Shown here piece by piece: positions 34,444-63,022 of a stretch of 64,000 bases of DNA. The stretch lies in contig PUNM01000064.1 in assembly GCA_003552625.1 (NCBI GenBank), positions 1 through 64,000 of the forward strand, read 5' to 3'. The notes beneath the pieces were generated by a model that was not told the origin of the DNA, made no database searches, and saw nothing but the letters and a program-made list of their open reading frames with translations. The DNA comes from Ectothiorhodospiraceae bacterium (GTDB taxonomy: Bacteria > Pseudomonadota > Gammaproteobacteria > Nitrococcales > Halorhodospiraceae). The stretch's first letter is position 1; each line of letters begins with the position of its first letter. The translations under genes were made by a program, and so were the position numbers.

Positions 34444-35007
34444 TCAGCCCTCCGCCCCGTGAAGGATAGCGGCCAGTTCGCCGCGGGCGAGGAGGATCAA
34501 CTCGCTGACCTCGCGCACGGCGCCGCGACCGCCGGGGCGCCGGGTCACCCAGTCGGCGTGGGCCTGGACGTGGGGGTGGGCGTCGGCGACGGCGATACCG
34601 AGCCCGGCGCGGCGCACTGCGGGCAGATCGATGAGATCGTCGCCGGTGTAAGCGCAGCCACTCAGGGGGACGGCGAGGCGCTCGCTCATCTCGGCGAGCG
34701 CCTCGCCCTTGTCGGCGCGCCCGCGCAGCACATGGGGGATGCCGAGTTCATCGGCGCGGCGCATCAGGGCGCTGCCCCCGCGGGCGGTGATCCAGCCCAC
34801 CTGGACGCCGGCGTCCAGGAGCAGGCGCAGCCCCTTGCCGTCGTGGATATGGAAGACCTGGAGGGCATCGCCGCTGCCGCCGCAGTAGACGGTACCGTCG
34901 GTGAGCACCCCGTCCACGTCGAACAGGGCGGCGCGTATGCCGGCGGCCCGCTCGAGCACCGCAGCGGGCGGGTGGCCGCAGTAGGGGTGGAGGGCGGTGT
35001 CGGTCAT
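34444..35007 (-). CDS. kdsC: 3-deoxy-D-manno-octulosonate 8-phosphate phosphatase
   Basis: HAD-superfamily phosphatase that releases Kdo from Kdo-8-phosphate during LPS inner-core synthesis. The nucleophile motif is DVDGVLTDG (residues 30-38), and the later GDDLIDLPAV motif binds magnesium. The 187 residues are normal for this tetrameric enzyme. It overlaps kdsD by 4 nt (ATGA). Confidence 0.95.
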   Translation of the reverse strand: MTDTALHPYCGHPPAAVLERAAGIRAALFDVDGVLTDGTVYCGGSGDALQVFHIHDGKGLRLLLDAGVQVGWITARGGSALMRRADELGIPHVLRGRADKGEALAEMSERLAVPLSGCAYTGDDLIDLPAVRRAGLGIAVADAHPHVQAHADWVTRRPGGRGAVREVSELILLARGELAAILHGAEG

Positions 35008-36026
35008 ACCACGCCGGCCCGCAGCAGATCGTGCATGTTCAAGGCGCCGACGAGCCGTTCGTCGGCGTCGGTGATCAGCAGCGCGTTGATGCGGTGGCGC
35101 TCCATGCGCTCGGCGGCTTCGGCGGCGAGCCAGTCGGGGGCGCCGGGTTGCGGACCCGGCGTCATGACCTCCTGGATCGGTGTGGTGTGGATATCCGCGC
35201 CGCGGTCCAGCGTGCGGCGCAGGTCGCCATCGGTGAAGATGCCGAGGACACGGTCGTCGCCATCGACCACGGCCGTCATCCCCAACCCCTTGCGGCTGAT
35301 CTCCAGCAGCGCCTCGCGCAGGGGGGTCTGGGGAGCGACGCGGGGGATGCGCTCGCCGGTCTGCATGACGTCCTCGATGTGCAGCAGCAGGCGCCGGCCC
35401 AGTTTGCCGCCGGGGTGGGAGCGGGCGAAGTCCTCGGCCGTAAAGCCCCGGGCGTCGAGCAGCGCCACGGCCAGTGCATCCCCCATGGCCAGGGTGGCCG
35501 TGGTGCTCGCCGTCGGGGCGAGGCCGAGGGGGCAGGCCTCCTGGGCCACGCCGATGTCGAGATGGACATTCGCCGCGTGGGCGAGGGTGGATCCCGGCTT
35601 GCCGGTGAGCGCGATCAGCGGCACACCGAGGCGCTTGATCAGGGGCAGGATGGCGGTGATCTCGTCGGTCTCGCCGGAGTTGGACAGGGCGATGACCACA
35701 TCGTCGACGGTGATCATGCCCAGGTCCCCGTGGCTGGCCTCCCCGGGGTGCACGAAGAAGGCCGGCGTCCCCGTGCTCGCCAGGGTGGCGGCCATCTTCG
35801 AGCCGATGTGGCCGGATTTGCCCATGCCGGTGACGATCACCCGCCCGCGGCAGGCGAGCATGTGGTGGCAGGCGGCGGCGAACTCGCCCCCGATGCGCTG
35901 CCCCAGCGCAGCGACGGCGTCCGCCTCCAGCTGCAGCACGGCGCGTCCGAGCGCCTGCAGGCGCTCGTCGCTGCCGGCGTCGGTGGTGGCCTGGTAGTGC
36001 TCGACGAGGGTACGCATGGCAGTCAT
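35004..36026 (-). CDS. kdsD: D-arabinose 5-phosphate isomerase
   Basis: Converts ribulose-5-phosphate to arabinose-5-phosphate, the precursor of Kdo. An N-terminal SIS domain (VTGMGKSGHIGSKMAATLASTG) is followed by two CBS domains. The length of 340 residues is just above the ~325 of E. coli KdsD. An ATG at 36017 is an alternative start; GGGGGT lies directly before the first ATG and about 10 nt before the second. It opens the minus-strand kdsD-kdsC-lptCAB-rpoN run. Confidence 0.95.
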   Translation of the reverse strand: MTAMRTLVEHYQATTDAGSDERLQALGRAVLQLEADAVAALGQRIGGEFAAACHHMLACRGRVIVTGMGKSGHIGSKMAATLASTGTPAFFVHPGEASHGDLGMITVDDVVIALSNSGETDEITAILPLIKRLGVPLIALTGKPGSTLAHAANVHLDIGVAQEACPLGLAPTASTTATLAMGDALAVALLDARGFTAEDFARSHPGGKLGRRLLLHIEDVMQTGERIPRVAPQTPLREALLEISRKGLGMTAVVDGDDRVLGIFTDGDLRRTLDRGADIHTTPIQEVMTPGPQPGAPDWLAAEAAERMERHRINALLITDADERLVGALNMHDLLRAGVV

Positions 36027-36077
36027 ACCCCCATTCTACGACATCTGTTGCAGTTCCCGAGGGGCGCCGTGTGGCCT

Positions 36078-36093
36078 GCGGTCAATTGACCGC
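36078..36093. promoter_or_regulatory. perfect 16-bp palindrome, candidate operator
   Basis: GCGGTCAATTGACCGC is a perfect inverted repeat in the 112-nt gap between divergent kdsD and mlaF. Its right half contains the -35 hexamer (TTGACC) of the predicted mlaF promoter. That position would suit a dimeric repressor. I do not recognise the site as that of any known regulator. Confidence 0.5.
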
Positions 36094-36114
36094 TCGGTCG
36101 GCGCGATGGATACT
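36086..36114 (+). promoter_or_regulatory. sigma-70 promoter of the mla operon
   Basis: TTGACC (36086-36091) and GATACT (36109-36114) are separated by exactly 17 nt. A start near 36121 would leave a leader of about 18 nt before the mlaF ATG, which carries a GGGGGAGG ribosome binding site. Confidence 0.6.
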
Positions 36115-36138
36115 GCCCGCAGCGTAAAGGGGGAGGCG

Positions 36139-36963
36139 ATGGAGGCCGCAGAGAACCGCGACGAGATGCTCGCACGGGTGCGCGGACTGTGTGTCCGGCG
36201 CGGCGGGCGGTCGATCTTCGATGGGGTCGATCTCGATATCCGCCGCGGTCAGGTGACGGCCATCATGGGGCCGAGCGGTACCGGGAAGACCACCCTGCTG
36301 CGGGTGCTCGGCGGGCAATTGCGGCCTCAGGCCGGTGAGGTCCACGTCCTCGGTGAAGCGGTCCCGCAACTCAGCCGCGCGGAGCTCTACGCCCTGCGCC
36401 GGCGCATGGGGGTGCTCTTCCAGAGCGGGGCGCTCTTCACCCACCTCTCGGTCTTTGAGAACGTGGCCTTCCCCATCCGCGAGCACGCCCGCCTGCCCGA
36501 GCCGCTGGTGGAGACCCTGGTGCTGCTCAAGCTGGAAGCGGTCGGACTGCGCGGCGCCCGAGACCTCATGCCGGCGGAGCTCTCCGGCGGGATGGCCCGG
36601 CGCGTGGCCCTGGCCCGGGCCATCGCCCTCGATCCTGCCCTGATGATGTACGACGAGCCCTTCGCCGGGCAGGATCCGATCACCATGGGGGTGCTCATCG
36701 ATCTGATCCGGCGGCTGAACGATGCCCTCGGGTTGACCTCGGTGGTCGTCTCCCACGATGTCCATGAGACCTTCGCCATCGCCGACTACGTCTACGTCCT
36801 CGCCGACGGCGCTGTCATCGCCGAGGGGACGCCGGCGCAGCTGAACGCCTCCGAGGCGGCTTCGGTGCGCCAGTTCGTGGATGCCCGGCCCGATGGACCG
36901 GTGCCGTTCCACTACCCCGCGCGAAGCCTGGCCGATGAGCTGACCGGAGGGCGCGGGTCGTGA
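36139..36963 (+). CDS. mlaF: lipid asymmetry ABC transporter ATP-binding protein MlaF
   Basis: ATPase of the MlaFEDB complex that moves phospholipid between the outer-membrane lipoprotein system and the inner membrane. Walker A GPSGTGKT (44-51), signature LSGG from residue 148 and Walker B MMYDEPFAGQDP are all present. From the ATG at 36139, after GGGGGAGG, it has 274 residues. Upstream in-frame codons would run through the promoter and are rejected. It overlaps mlaE by 4 nt (GTGA). Confidence 0.95.
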   Translation: MEAAENRDEMLARVRGLCVRRGGRSIFDGVDLDIRRGQVTAIMGPSGTGKTTLLRVLGGQLRPQAGEVHVLGEAVPQLSRAELYALRRRMGVLFQSGALFTHLSVFENVAFPIREHARLPEPLVETLVLLKLEAVGLRGARDLMPAELSGGMARRVALARAIALDPALMMYDEPFAGQDPITMGVLIDLIRRLNDALGLTSVVVSHDVHETFAIADYVYVLADGAVIAEGTPAQLNASEAASVRQFVDARPDGPVPFHYPARSLADELTGGRGS

Positions 36964-37736
36964 TCGGCGCGATTCAGGGACTCGGACGGCGGACCCTCGA
37001 CGGCCTGCGCGGGCTCGGTGAGGCGGTGCTGCTGATGCTGCGCATCCTGCGCGCGGCCCCGGAGGTGGTGCGTCGGCCGCGGCTGCTTATCGAACAGCTC
37101 TACGTCGTCGGCGTCTTGTCGCTGGTGATCATTCTCGTCTCGGCGCTCTTCGTGGGGCTGGTGCTCGGTCTGCAGGGGTACTACACCCTGGTCGATTTCG
37201 GCGCCGAGGACGCCGTCGGCACCATGGTGGCGCTGACCCTGGTCCGGGAACTGGGGCCGGTGGTGACAGCGCTGCTGTTTGCCGGCCGGGCCGGGTCCTC
37301 GCTGACCGCCGAGGTCGGGCTGATGAAAGCCACCGAGCAGCTTTCCAGCATGGAGATGATGGCGGTGGACCCGGAGCGGCGCATCCTCGCCCCGCGCTTC
37401 TTCGCGGCGCTGCTGGCGGTGCCGTTGCTGGCGGCGATCTTCAGCGCCGTCGGCGTCTTCGGCGGCTATCTGGTCTCGGTGGGCATGATCGGAATCGATG
37501 CCGGCGCTTACTGGTCCAATATGCAGAACGCCGTCACCGTGCAGGATGATATCTTGAATGGGGCAATCAAGAGCGTGGTCTTCGGCTTCCTGGCCGGCTG
37601 GATCGCGCTGCATAAGGGGTACATGGCCACGCCGACCTCAAGCGGGGTGAGCCGGGCGACGACCATGGGCGTGGTGCACACCTCCTTGGCGGTGCTCGGG
37701 CTGGACTTCCTGCTCACGGCGCTGATGTTCGGCTGA
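36960..37736 (+). CDS. mlaE: lipid asymmetry ABC transporter permease MlaE
   Basis: Integral inner-membrane permease of the Mla system, 258 residues with five or six hydrophobic segments. The family core GPVVTALLFAGRAGSSLTAE and the SMEMMAVDP region are clear. The GTG start overlaps the stop of mlaF. It acts as a dimer at the centre of the MlaFEDB complex. Confidence 0.95.
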   Translation: MIGAIQGLGRRTLDGLRGLGEAVLLMLRILRAAPEVVRRPRLLIEQLYVVGVLSLVIILVSALFVGLVLGLQGYYTLVDFGAEDAVGTMVALTLVRELGPVVTALLFAGRAGSSLTAEVGLMKATEQLSSMEMMAVDPERRILAPRFFAALLAVPLLAAIFSAVGVFGGYLVSVGMIGIDAGAYWSNMQNAVTVQDDILNGAIKSVVFGFLAGWIALHKGYMATPTSSGVSRATTMGVVHTSLAVLGLDFLLTALMFG

Positions 37737-37752
37737 ACGGAGAGGCAACACG

Positions 37753-38208
37753 ATGAGCCAACGGCTCGTGGAGATCTGGGTCGGATTGTTCGTGGCCCTG
37801 GGGCTGGCCGGGTTTCTGGTCCTGGCCCTGCAGGTCAGTGGCCTGGCGGAGATCCGCCAGCAGCCGGGCTATCAGGTGGCGGCCAGCTTCGACAACATTG
37901 GCGGGCTCCGGGAGCGCGCGCCGGTGAGCATGGCCGGCGTCCGCGTGGGCAAGGTCGAGCGCATCGAGCTCAACCCGGAGAGCCACCAGGCCGAGGTCAT
38001 CCTCCGTATCGACCAGCGCTACGACCGGATCCCGGTGGATACCTCGGCGGCGATCTACACCTCCGGACTGCTCGGCGAGCAGTACGTCGGCCTGGAGGCC
38101 GGCTGGGAGGACGAGACGCTCGGCAGCGGGGATCGGATCACTCAGACCCAGTCGGCCGTGGTCCTGGAACGGTTGATCGGCCAATTCCTGACGCGGATGC
38201 AAGACTGA
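37753..38208 (+). CDS. mlaD: lipid asymmetry MCE-domain protein MlaD
   Basis: Substrate-binding subunit of the Mla transporter. It is anchored by one N-terminal membrane segment (about residues 7-28) and has one MCE domain beginning VAASFDNIGGLRERAPVSMAGV. Hexamers of MlaD form the hydrophobic channel on top of MlaE. At 151 residues it is shorter than E. coli MlaD (183), mainly at the C-terminus. Confidence 0.94.
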   Translation: MSQRLVEIWVGLFVALGLAGFLVLALQVSGLAEIRQQPGYQVAASFDNIGGLRERAPVSMAGVRVGKVERIELNPESHQAEVILRIDQRYDRIPVDTSAAIYTSGLLGEQYVGLEAGWEDETLGSGDRITQTQSAVVLERLIGQFLTRMQD

Positions 38209-38224
38209 ACAGCGAGGTCGCGGA

Positions 38225-38851
38225 ATGCTTCAGGCAGTACGGGTAACCGGTGGGCGCAAAACGCTGGTAGGGCTTGTGGTTGGCGCTCTGGCGCTGTGGG
38301 GCGTGGCGCAGGCGAAGCCGGATCCGCGCGCGCTGGTCGAGCGCGTCACGCAGGAGGTGCTCGAAGTCTTTGAGGAGCGCGGCGAGGAGCTCGCCGGCGA
38401 TCCGGTGGCGATCTACGAGGCCCTGGCGCCCATCGTCGAGCCGCACATCGACTACGACCGGATCGGGGCGCGCATCCTCGGGCCCCACTGGCGGGATGCC
38501 GACGACGCCACCCGGGAGCGCTTCGTGCAGGAGTTTCAGCGCAGCCTGCTGCGCACTTACGCCTCCAGCATGGAGGAGTACCAGGGGGTGGATGTCCGCA
38601 TCCTCGGGAGCCGCCAGCGCGACGGCGGTGTCCAGGTGGGCATGGAGGTCGGCGCCGGGGATAGCCGGGCCCGGGTCCTCTACCGGCTCGAGGCGCAGGA
38701 CGATGCCTGGAAGCTCGTGGACGTGACCGCCGAAGGCGTAAGCCTGATCCACAACTACCGCGAGGACTTCCGGGCGCGGCTGCGTGATCACACGCTCGAG
38801 GAGGTCATCGAGCAGATGGCCGAGCGCAACCGGGAGATCGGCTTCGAATGA
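38225..38851 (+). CDS. mlaC: phospholipid-binding periplasmic protein MlaC
   Basis: Periplasmic carrier that ferries phospholipid between the MlaA-porin complex and MlaFEDB. A signal peptide ends near the AQA at residues 29-31 (LALWGVAQAKPDP). The mature domain shows the typical ...TLEEVIEQMAERN end. It is 208 residues long. Its stop overlaps the mlaB ATG (ATGA). The outer-membrane partner MlaA is not in the window. Confidence 0.93.
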   Translation: MLQAVRVTGGRKTLVGLVVGALALWGVAQAKPDPRALVERVTQEVLEVFEERGEELAGDPVAIYEALAPIVEPHIDYDRIGARILGPHWRDADDATRERFVQEFQRSLLRTYASSMEEYQGVDVRILGSRQRDGGVQVGMEVGAGDSRARVLYRLEAQDDAWKLVDVTAEGVSLIHNYREDFRARLRDHTLEEVIEQMAERNREIGFE

Positions 38852-39162
38852 ACGCGGCGACCCTGGAGCCGAACGGCGCGCAGGGGCGTCGGCTGTGCGG
38901 CCGGCTGGACTTCGAGACCGCAGCGGCGATCTGGGCCGAGGGGCTGGCCTGGATCGACGCGGCCAACGGCGAGCGCGTCCTCGATCTGGCGGCGGTGGAG
39001 CGGACGGATAGCGCCGGCGTCGCGGTGCTCGTGGACTGGACGCGCCGGGCCCGGGGCCACGGGAGTACCCTGCGTCTGCGCCACATGCCCGAGCAGATGA
39101 CGGCCATCGTCGAGGTCACCGGCGTGGCGCCCGTGCTCGATATCGCCGACGAACGGCCTTGA
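38848..39162 (+). CDS. mlaB: STAS-domain protein MlaB
   Basis: Cytoplasmic STAS protein that binds MlaF and is needed for activity and stability of the transporter. The 104 residues include LDLAAVERTDSAGVAVLVDW, the STAS core around its conserved serine and threonine region. It ends the mlaFEDCB unit. The next gene follows after 61 nt with a possible promoter of its own. Confidence 0.88.
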   Translation: MNAATLEPNGAQGRRLCGRLDFETAAAIWAEGLAWIDAANGERVLDLAAVERTDSAGVAVLVDWTRRARGHGSTLRLRHMPEQMTAIVEVTGVAPVLDIADERP

Positions 39163-39168
39163 ATCGGC

Positions 39169-39174
39169 TATAAT
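39169..39174 (+). promoter_or_regulatory. possible -10 element upstream of ibaG
   Basis: A perfect TATAAT lies 49 nt before the ibaG ATG, in the only sizeable gap between mlaB and ibaG. No good -35 hexamer is found at 16-18 nt, so the promoter may be weak or activator-dependent, or this may be chance. Confidence 0.35.
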
Positions 39175-39223
39175 CGCGCGCTTTACGGCAACAGGCTGCG
39201 AGCGAATCGCAGGGGGACAGGCA

Positions 39224-40730
<1,507 letters not shown>

Positions 40731-40752
40731 CGACGAGAGCCAGCCCAGACCC

Positions 40753-41397
40753 ATGAGCCGAACCCTGACCCTCGCCCTGTCCAAGGGCCGCATCCTGGAA
40801 GACACCCTGCCGCTGCTCAGCGCCTGCGGCATCGAGCCGGCGGAGGACCCCGACGCCAGCCGCAAGCTGATCATCGGCACCAACCGCGATGACCTCCAGC
40901 TGCTGGTGGTGCGGGCCTCCGATGTGCCCACCTACGTCGAGCACGGCGGCGCCGATCTGGGTGTGGCCGGCCGCGACGTCCTGCTTGAGCACGGCGGCAC
41001 CGGGCTCTACGACCCGGTGGATCTGGGCATCGCCCGCTGCCGGCTGATGGTCGCCGGGCCCAAGGGCGGGGCGCCGGCAGGGCGGCGCCCCCGGGTGGCG
41101 ACCAAGTTCGTCCATCTCGCCCGGCAGTACTTTGCCCAGCAGGGGCGACAGGCGGAGATCATCAAGCTCTACGGCTCCATGGAGCTCGCCCCGCTGGTGG
41201 GCATGGCCGATCTGATTGTCGATCTGGTGGATACCGGGAACACGCTGCGCGCCAACGGGCTCGAGCCTCTGGAGGAGATCCTCCCGATCAGCGCTCGCCT
41301 GGTGGTCAACAAGGCCTCATTGAAGACCGAGCCGGACCGGGTCGGCGCCCTGACACGGGATCTGGCCGCCGCGGCCCGCGCCGCCCAGAGCACTTAG
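40753..41397 (+). CDS. hisG: ATP phosphoribosyltransferase catalytic subunit, short form
   Basis: First step of histidine synthesis. From the ATG at 40753 it has 214 residues. It therefore lacks the C-terminal ACT-like regulatory domain of long HisG (~300 residues). Short HisG works only with HisZ, a histidyl-tRNA-synthetase-like regulatory subunit, which must lie outside this window. The core [16 protein letters not shown] and the [12 protein letters not shown] motif are present. The frame continues upstream into murA, but that part is not conserved. Confidence 0.94.
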
Positions 41398-41418
41398 CAA
41401 TAGCCGAAGGGAACAGCC

Positions 41419-42738
41419 ATGGTCGAGATCAAGCGGCTGAGTACGACGCAACCCGATTTCTGGGACAGCCTCGACGCCCTGACCAGCTGGGGCAACCACC
41501 CCGGGGCCGCCATTGAGCAGCGGGTCGCCGAAGTGGTGGACGGGGTGCGCAGTGGCGGGGATGCCGCGCTGCTCGATTACGTCCGGCGTTTCGACGGCAC
41601 CGAGGCGGGCAGCGTCGCCGAGCTGGAGATCCCCGCAGCCGATCGGGCGGCGGCCCTCGAGCAGATCGCCCCGGAGGCGCGCGAGGCCCTGGAGGCGGCC
41701 GCGGAGCGCATCCGCGCCTACGCCGAGCGGCAGCGCCTGGAGGAGTGGAGCTACGAGGACGCCGACGGCAACCGCCTCGGGCAGCAGGTGACGGCGCTCG
41801 ACCGGGTCGGCGTCTACGTCCCCGGGGGCAAGGCGGCGTACCCCTCCACGGTGCTCATGAACGCGGTGCCGGCGCGGGTTGCCGGCGTCGAGGAGATCAT
41901 CATGGTCGTGCCGGCCCCGGGTGGGGCGATCTCCCCGCTGGTGCTCGCTGCCGCCCATGTGGCCGGCGTCGATCGCATCTTCACCATCGGCGGCGCCCAG
42001 GCGGTGGCGGCGCTGGCCTACGGCACCGAGACCGTCCCGGCGGTGGACAAGATCGTGGGTCCGGGTAACGCCTACGTCGCCGAGGCGAAGCGGCGGGTCT
42101 TCGGCGTGGTCGGCATCGACATGATCGCCGGTCCCTCGGAGGTGCTGATCATCAGCGACGGCCAGGCGGATCCGGAGTGGATCGCCATGGATCTGTTCTC
42201 ACAGGCTGAGCACGACGAGGAAGCGCAGGCCCTGCTGGTCTGCCCGGACTTCGTCTTCCTCGACCAGGTCCAGCAAGCGATGGAGCGGCTCCTGCCGGAT
42301 CTGGAGCGCTCCGAGATCATTCGTGCCTCCCTCGCCGAGCGCGGCGCCCTGATCTGCGTCCGCGACCTGGAGGAGGCGCAGCAGGTAGCCAATTACGTGG
42401 CCCCGGAGCACCTGGAACTGTCCGTGGCGGAGCCGGACCGCCTGCTCGAGGGGATCCGCCACGCCGGGGCGATCTTCCTCGGCCATTACAGCGCCGAGGC
42501 GCTCGGCGACTACTGCGCCGGGCCCAACCACACGCTGCCGACGTCGCGCACGGCCCGCTTCGCCTCGCCGCTGGGGGTCTACGACTTCCAGAAACGTTCG
42601 ACGACGCTCTACTGCTCGCCGCAGGGGGCGGCGGCGCTGAGCGGCTGCGCGGCCGCTCTCGCCCGCGGTGAGGGGCTGACGGCCCACGCCCGGTCGGCGG
42701 AGTACCGGGCCCGCGGCGAGGAGTCGGCCGGTGACTAG
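41419..42738 (+). CDS. hisD: histidinol dehydrogenase
   Basis: Zinc enzyme catalysing the last two oxidations of histidine synthesis, histidinol to histidine with NAD. Characteristic blocks are [34 protein letters not shown] and GPNHTLPTS, in 439 residues. Its last 8 nt overlap the hisC start. The hisG-hisD-hisC trio is detached from the remaining his genes. Confidence 0.96.
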
Positions 42739-61679: not shown

Positions 61680-63022
61680 TGGCAGTCGAGCCACGCCACA
61701 ACGGCTACACCGCGGTCGCCGGACTCGGCGTCACCGGGGTGGCGTGTGTCCGCCACCTGCGTGCCCGCGGGGAGGCGGTGGTGGCGCTGGACAGTCGCGC
61801 CGAGCCGCCCGGGGCGGCGACCGTGGCCGCTGAGCACCCGGAAGTGGAGTTGATCACCGGGGGGTTCGACGCGGAGCGGCTCGCCGGCGCCGAGCGCGTG
61901 GTGGTCAGCCCGGGCCTCGATCTGCGCCGGGGACCGCTGAGCGATCTGCGGGCAGCCGGGCGTCCGGTCGTCGGTGAACTTTCGCTCTTCGCCGAGGCCG
62001 CGCAGGGGCCGGTCTGTGCGGTCACCGGCTCCAATGGCAAGTCCACGGTGGTGACGCTGCTTGGAGAGATGGCGGCGGCCGCCGGTCTCGACGTCGGTGT
62101 GGGCGGCAACCTCGGCACGCCGGCGCTGGCGCTGCTCGAGGCTGCGCCGGCGGACGGCTATCTGCTTGAGGTCTCCAGCTTCCAGCTCGAGACCTGCCTC
62201 GGGTTCCGGGCCGACTACGGCGCGGTGCTCAACGTCAGCCCCGATCACATGGACCGTTACGACAGCCTCGGCGACTACGCGGCCACCAAGGACCGGATCC
62301 TCGACGGCGTGACCGTCGCGGTCGTGGGCCATGATGACCCGTGGACCGCTGCGATGGGTCATGCGGCCCCGCGGCGCCTCTCCTTTGGGGTGGACGCGGA
62401 GGCCGACTACCGCATCGCCGATGTGCAGGGGGAGCGCTGGCTCCTCGCCGCAGATACGCCGCGGCTGCCGGTGCGGGCGTTGCCGGTGCCCGGGTCCGCC
62501 CATCAGCTCAACGCCCTGGCCAGCATGGCCCTGGCCGACGCCCTGGGCATCCCCGGGGATGCCCAGGCGGCGGTGCTGCGCGGCTTCGCCGGACTGCCGC
62601 ACCGCCTGGAGCGGATCGGCACCTGGGACGGGGTAACCTGGATCAACGATTCCAAGGCCACCAATGTCGGTGCCGCTGTCGCCGCCCTCTCCGGGATGCC
62701 CGGTGCGGTGGTCCTGATCGCCGGCGGTCAGGGCAAGGGGGCCGACTTCACTGCGCTGGCCGAGGCGTGCCGGGAACGCGCTCGGGCCGTGGTGCTCATC
62801 GGCGAGGATGCCCCCGCCATCGAGGCGGCCCTGGCTGGCCGTGTGCCCAGCGTCTGTGCCCGGGATATGACCGAAGCGGTGGAGCAGGCTCGCCGTCGCG
62901 CGCAGCCCGGGGATACCGTGCTGCTCGCGCCGGCCTGCGCAAGCTTCGATCAGTACGCCGGCTTCGAGGCACGCGGCGTGGCCTTCCGGGAGGCTGTGGA
63001 GCGGGAGGTGGCCCATGGCTGA
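61679..63022 (+). CDS. murD: UDP-N-acetylmuramoylalanine--D-glutamate ligase
   Basis: Adds D-glutamate to UDP-MurNAc-L-Ala. The N-terminal Rossmann part reads AVAGLGVTGVACVRHLRARG, the ATP loop AVTGSNGKSTVV includes Lys121, and the later WINDSKATNVGA is a hallmark of MurD. It has 447 residues from the ATG at 61679. Its last 8 nt overlap ftsW. Confidence 0.96.
   Translation: MAVEPRHNGYTAVAGLGVTGVACVRHLRARGEAVVALDSRAEPPGAATVAAEHPEVELITGGFDAERLAGAERVVVSPGLDLRRGPLSDLRAAGRPVVGELSLFAEAAQGPVCAVTGSNGKSTVVTLLGEMAAAAGLDVGVGGNLGTPALALLEAAPADGYLLEVSSFQLETCLGFRADYGAVLNVSPDHMDRYDSLGDYAATKDRILDGVTVAVVGHDDPWTAAMGHAAPRRLSFGVDAEADYRIADVQGERWLLAADTPRLPVRALPVPGSAHQLNALASMALADALGIPGDAQAAVLRGFAGLPHRLERIGTWDGVTWINDSKATNVGAAVAALSGMPGAVVLIAGGQGKGADFTALAEACRERARAVVLIGEDAPAIEAALAGRVPSVCARDMTEAVEQARRRAQPGDTVLLAPACASFDQYAGFEARGVAFREAVEREVAHG

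Follow-up and report, generated by a model that had tools for sequence, protein, structure and literature searches.

A probable sigma-70-type core promoter conserved upstream of the mla operon, with an apparently incidental palindrome over its -35 hexamer

The intergenic gap studied here occupies positions 36027-36138 of the window, by which we mean the whole 64,000-nucleotide stretch of DNA that was analysed. It separates two divergent genes, kdsD on the minus strand (ATG at 36026) and mlaF on the plus strand (ATG at 36139). The genes at the locus are as follows.

35004..36026, minus strand: kdsD, the divergent neighbour, by its SIS domain and two CBS domains
36139..36963, plus strand: mlaF, by its ABC_tran domain
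36960..37736, plus strand: mlaE, by domain PF02405
37753..38208, plus strand: mlaD, by domain PF02470
38225..38851, plus strand: mlaC, by domain PF05494
38848..39162, plus strand: mlaB, by its STAS domain
39224..39469, plus strand: ibaG/bolA-like gene, by domain PF01722
39474..40730, plus strand: murA, by its EPSP_synthase-family domain and by context
40756..41397, plus strand: hisG, from a putative start codon; the listed open reading frame opens at 40627, inside murA
41419..42738, plus strand: hisD, by domain

The genes murA, hisG and hisD lie behind mla on the same strand in all 18 loci that were read. We take the EPSP_synthase-family gene to be murA from this context; murA is essential. 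A simple scan found no consensus promoter inside 36139-41400 of the window. Were a single promoter to serve both an essential cell-wall gene and an envelope system, selection on it would be strong, and the dependence of murA and the envelope system on it would be what keeps such a promoter in place.

The gap between kdsD and mlaF holds the following features.

36033..36038, minus strand: TAGAAT, resembling a -10 and placed 6 nt ahead of the kdsD ATG, a spacing shared by 6 of 8 rows of the genus
36078..36093, no strand: GCGGTCAATTGACCGC, a perfect palindrome of 16 bp that we take to be incidental; its left arm lacks conservation
36086..36091, plus strand: TTGACC, the -35 hexamer of the mla promoter, with TTGAC retained in 50 of 52 order genomes
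36109..36114, plus strand: GATACT, the -10 hexamer of the mla promoter, likewise retained in 50 of 52 order genomes
36121..36121, plus strand: position at which transcription is predicted to begin, 7 nt past the -10
36129..36136, plus strand: purine-rich, Shine-Dalgarno-like stretch before the mlaF ATG, recognised by eye

TTGACC and GATACT are separated by a 17-bp spacer and together span 36086-36114. This pair is the only promoter-like match between 35500 and 36700, where shuffled sequences give a mean of 0.0. The -35 hexamer agrees with TTGACA at five of six positions, and the spacing falls within the 16-18 bp usual for sigma-70. GATACT agrees with TATAAT at four of six positions, which include the A at -11 and the T at -7; on paper it is a weak -10, and this counts against reading the element as a housekeeping promoter. 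Initiation at 36121 would leave an 18-nt leader with the purine-rich stretch before the ATG. From the minus-strand hexamer, a start 7 nt downstream would coincide with the kdsD ATG, so a leaderless mRNA is possible, and kdsD may be read from such a transcript in Halorhodospira.

The original prediction noted an exact 16-bp inverted repeat in this gap, and the repeat is indeed there. It also took half of the repeat as the -35 of a well-spaced sigma-70 promoter, which agrees with TTGACC-17-GATACT and with the retention of this pair in 50 of 52 order genomes. Palindrome and promoter have to be assessed separately. For the palindrome the questions are how unusual it is and whether relatives share it. 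The chance of such a palindrome in one 112-bp gap of like composition is 0.3%. Across the window there are seven perfect palindromes of at least 16 bp, against a mean of 3.3 (range 0 to 8) in 50 random sequences generated to match its first-order base steps. The palindrome is thus unusual for one given gap and not for the 64-kb window as a whole. Longer perfect palindromes lie at 62542-62567 (26 bp) and 34800-34819 (20 bp).

Conservation of the palindrome amid drifting flanks, which the original prediction proposed as a check, was not observed. Within 300 bp upstream of mlaF, GGTCAATTGACC was found in the window's own genome only, that is, in 1 of the 52 order genomes with an mlaF locus, and the palindrome is present in none of the seven congeners that have the promoter. 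Such absence from close relatives is one half of what the original prediction said would refute it. Agreement with the seven congeners averages 2.43 of the 6 outer bases of the left arm and 5.86 of the 6 bases of the -35. With the window's own genome excluded, the two arms pair at 2.55 of 8 positions, compared with 2.50 when arms are shuffled among genomes, so we rejected the idea that they are imperfect conserved operators. Four congeners keep AATTGAC, which leaves the inner four bases symmetrical; 38 of 50 genomes have TTTGAC in its place.

The second proposed check, a search for further copies, gave nothing above background. At up to three mismatches, the own genome contains nine sites for the 16-mer, including that at 36078-36093, and the backward control also gives nine. 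In the window, GGTCAATTGACC at up to two mismatches finds its own copy only (1.06 expected). A palindromic repressor operator should have both arms conserved in orthologous gaps and further copies before other genes of its regulon. Neither was found here, the second being a weak test, as a repressor with a single site would show no further copies.

In addition to the palindrome there is a second inverted repeat, the 12-mer GACCGCTCGGTC at 36088-36099, which overlaps the mla -35 in the window. We notice that it also lies directly upstream of the mla -35 in four of five genomes of genus g8 (G016, G019, G029 and G041). Its form GACCG-N2-CGGTC, which we take to resemble a TetR-like operator, was considered as such and set aside, being not enriched: counts do not exceed the control in any of eight genomes, and in the own genome GACCGNNCGGTC is rarer than in the control (7 vs 15).

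The repressor suggested by the original prediction can be weighed on these results. A species-specific protein could bind the palindrome over the -35 and block transcription of mla and perhaps of kdsD. The perfect 16-bp symmetry placed exactly on the -35, with its low chance per gap, speaks for such a protein, as does the second inverted repeat, found beside the -35 in genus g8 as well. However, the absence of the palindrome from all seven congeners, the pairing of the relatives' arms at the level of shuffled arms, own-genome copies no more frequent than in the control, and the deficit of GACCGNNCGGTC relative to its control all argue against it, and we consider this repressor unlikely. The palindrome is probably a chance product of sequence. 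The half that carries the -35 is kept on account of that role, and the bases to the left would mirror that hexamer by accident in one species only, so that no regulator would be required.

In order to follow the promoter itself, we compared 54 genomes of the order (G000-G053), a set that we judge to take in Halorhodospira, Aquisalimonas and Nitrococcus. An mlaF locus was available in 52. Outside this count are G005, with no close MlaF match, and G017, in which the exact pair lies 315 bp from the contig end and 1.2 kb from its kdsD. Of the 52 genomes, 50 carry TTGAC-N17/18-GATACT upstream of mlaF, and they represent 15 of 16 genera; the spacer is 17 in 46 genomes and 18 in four. All 50 have G at -12, and T at -17 and C at -14 reach genus-weighted frequencies of 0.79 and 0.77.

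The pair is missing in two genomes, both of genus g2, and the operon is kept in the one that was fully read; the mla promoter may have been lost or replaced in this genus. The two loci concerned, L014 and L015, are the only ones of the order without the pair, and in L015 mlaF lies about 50 bp from kdsD.

As a measure of background, any 5-mer/6-mer pair at the same spacings was scored before control genes by the number of genera sharing it, in the best-scoring 30 of 47 to 49 matching genomes for each gene. The best shared pair reached 6 of 15 genera for kdsD, 6 of 14 for recA, 5 of 14 for mlaA and 4 of 12 for rpoH. Among the kdsD pairs, some represent the mla promoter in reverse reading, and the upstream stretches of recA, mlaA and rpoH were measured from the start of the domain match and are partly coding. 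The degree of conservation before mlaF may hint at more than core recognition.

Gene order bears on a further part of the original prediction, a two-way co-ordination of phospholipid transport (mla) with LPS synthesis and export (kds-lpt) from the shared gap. In nine of the 18 loci read, 1.1 to 1.6 kb separate kdsD from mlaF, and the promoter is kept in all nine. The longest intervening open frame looks by eye like a Na/Ca exchanger in six of the nine, confirmed by Pfam in both of the two scanned; in the other three (L401, L406 and L409) the longest frame appears to be a wrong frame. Divergent co-ordination with kdsD is thus rejected as the cause of conservation. The promoter persists at loci with another divergent neighbour than kdsD, and so belongs to mla and is not a shared switch. 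The comparison of loci gives no support to a mla/kds-lpt switch, as the conserved element is directional and stays when its neighbour changes.

Which polymerase reads the pair can be approached through its other occurrences. Across the 54 order genomes we count 87 occurrences of the exact pair and 11 of the backward pattern. Three sites away from mlaF were read. One precedes a tRNA-Arg gene (L419), one precedes a tRNA-Met gene (L420) and one has no assigned gene (L418); the two tRNA sites carry exact TTGAC-N18-GATACT. Several genomes of genera g10 and g12 have further sequences like the L419 and L420 matches.

A related TTGAC/TATACT pair recurs in 11 genomes of family f2, spread over four genera. 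Four genomes were read, three of this set and G010, and in each of them TTGAC-N18-TATACT stands before an atpI-like gene (L414, L415, L416 and L417), which matches Pfam ATP-synt_I in three of them. The idea that such conservation is unique to mla is weakened by this case, as the pair is kept across genera. TTGAC-N18-TATAAT was not found in any of the nine genomes of the window's genus.

The position of TTGAC/GATACT before tRNA genes makes a housekeeping sigma-70-type promoter the best reading. Together with the absence of TTGAC/TATAAT it is also the simplest, GATACT being no odd -10 in these GC-rich genomes. The pair could be read, in place of the housekeeping holoenzyme, by an alternative sigma factor or by an activator dependent on the G at -12. 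The invariance of that G in the 50 order genomes, with T at -17 and C at -14 also common, is what such a factor would explain. But the exact pair stands before tRNA genes too, the -10 relaxes to [GC]ANAMT in other orders as expected of a core promoter, and the near absence of TTGAC-N18-TATAAT from these GC-rich genomes makes the G at -12 no marked departure, so that we regard this alternative as very improbable. We conclude that the functional element is likely a housekeeping sigma-70-type core promoter, TTGACC-17-GATACT, and that the palindrome is probably incidental to it. Counting against this reading are the weak -10, the two g2 genomes that lack the pair and the low chance of such a palindrome in a single gap. 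The RpoD holoenzyme would recognise the pair and fire rightwards from about 36121, giving a short-leader transcript that would run as a single unit through mlaFEDCB-ibaG-murA-hisG-hisD.

The promoter can be followed beyond the order in a looser form, TTGAC-N17..19-[GC]ANAMT, within 300 bp upstream of mlaF. It is present in 23 of 103 genomes from other orders (reversed form 0, shuffles 0.3), a descriptive figure because the looser form was picked after viewing the best matches; it was applied unchanged in the reversed and shuffled controls. This class set comprises 104 of 112 matching other-order genomes, eight of the weakest matches being left out, less one that was too short. In a second set of named loci (80 taken, one too short and dropped), which partly overlaps the class set, the form is found in 28 of 79 (reversed 1, shuffles 0.2), or in 24 of 74 outside the order, five loci being judged to match order genomes already counted. 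Carriers include loci of Plasticicumulans, Thiohalomonas, Thioalkalivibrio, Methylophaga and Methylocaldum, and the form is missing from the Pseudomonas, Halomonas and Marinobacter loci of the named set. E. coli was also considered as a carrier of TTGAC/GATACT and rejected, as the pair has no match in the 210 bp before its mlaF.

From these comparisons we tentatively suggest, as a possibility somewhat short of even, that an ancestral gammaproteobacterial mla-murA core promoter has been kept base for base as TTGAC-17-GATACT through the order while neighbours, leader length and most flanks changed. It would be traceable as TTGAC-17-GANAMT in sulfur-oxidising and methylotrophic lineages, and other control may have taken its place in Pseudomonas, Halomonas, Marinobacter and E. 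coli (MarA in enterics). With its -10 fixed below the optimum, such a promoter could hold the expression of phospholipid transport and murA within a narrow level. The analysis as a whole removes a tempting regulatory link between mla and LPS export as unsupported, and a testable promoter link is put in its place. The promoter, ahead of both mla and murA, would be old enough to trace through several gammaproteobacterial orders, and its turnover in enterics and pseudomonads could be set in time relative to the acquisition of MarA and similar regulators.

Among the papers found on mla operon promoters, the kdsD-mlaF intergenic region and Halorhodospira transcription starts, judged mainly by their listings, none is evidently on this conserved mla promoter. 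For E. coli mla, promoters mlaP1-P3 are reported, of which MarA activates mlaP2 through a marbox (PMC5684230), and RamA likewise acts as an activator in Klebsiella (PMC11792452). Among E. coli RpoD sites listed from in vitro work, the one for mlaF is TGGACT-16-TAAAAC (PMC3946193), and a further paper concerns Stenotrophomonas mla (PMC10925693). In E. coli, MarA also brings phospholipid transport and LPS genes under common regulation, acting at separate marboxes before lpxC, lpxL, rfaY and mlaF (PMC12052159).

The E. coli promoters with their marbox serve the same operon from the same place upstream of mlaF as the promoter in the window. They differ in lacking TTGAC/GATACT and in having yrbG as the divergent neighbour, and control there is by an activator (MarA or RamA), not by a repressor at a palindrome. 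The co-ordination of mla with LPS genes by MarA resembles the link in the original prediction, yet it works through separate marboxes and not through a shared divergent operator. Compared with sigma-70 housekeeping core promoters in general, the mla promoter is alike in its TTGAC -35, its 17-bp spacer, its A at -11 and T at -7, and the presence of the pair before tRNA genes in relatives. It is unlike the usual ones in its GATACT -10 and in being kept base for base before one operon in 15 of 16 genera. In kind the mla promoter is ordinary; what is unusual is how clear its record of conservation is.
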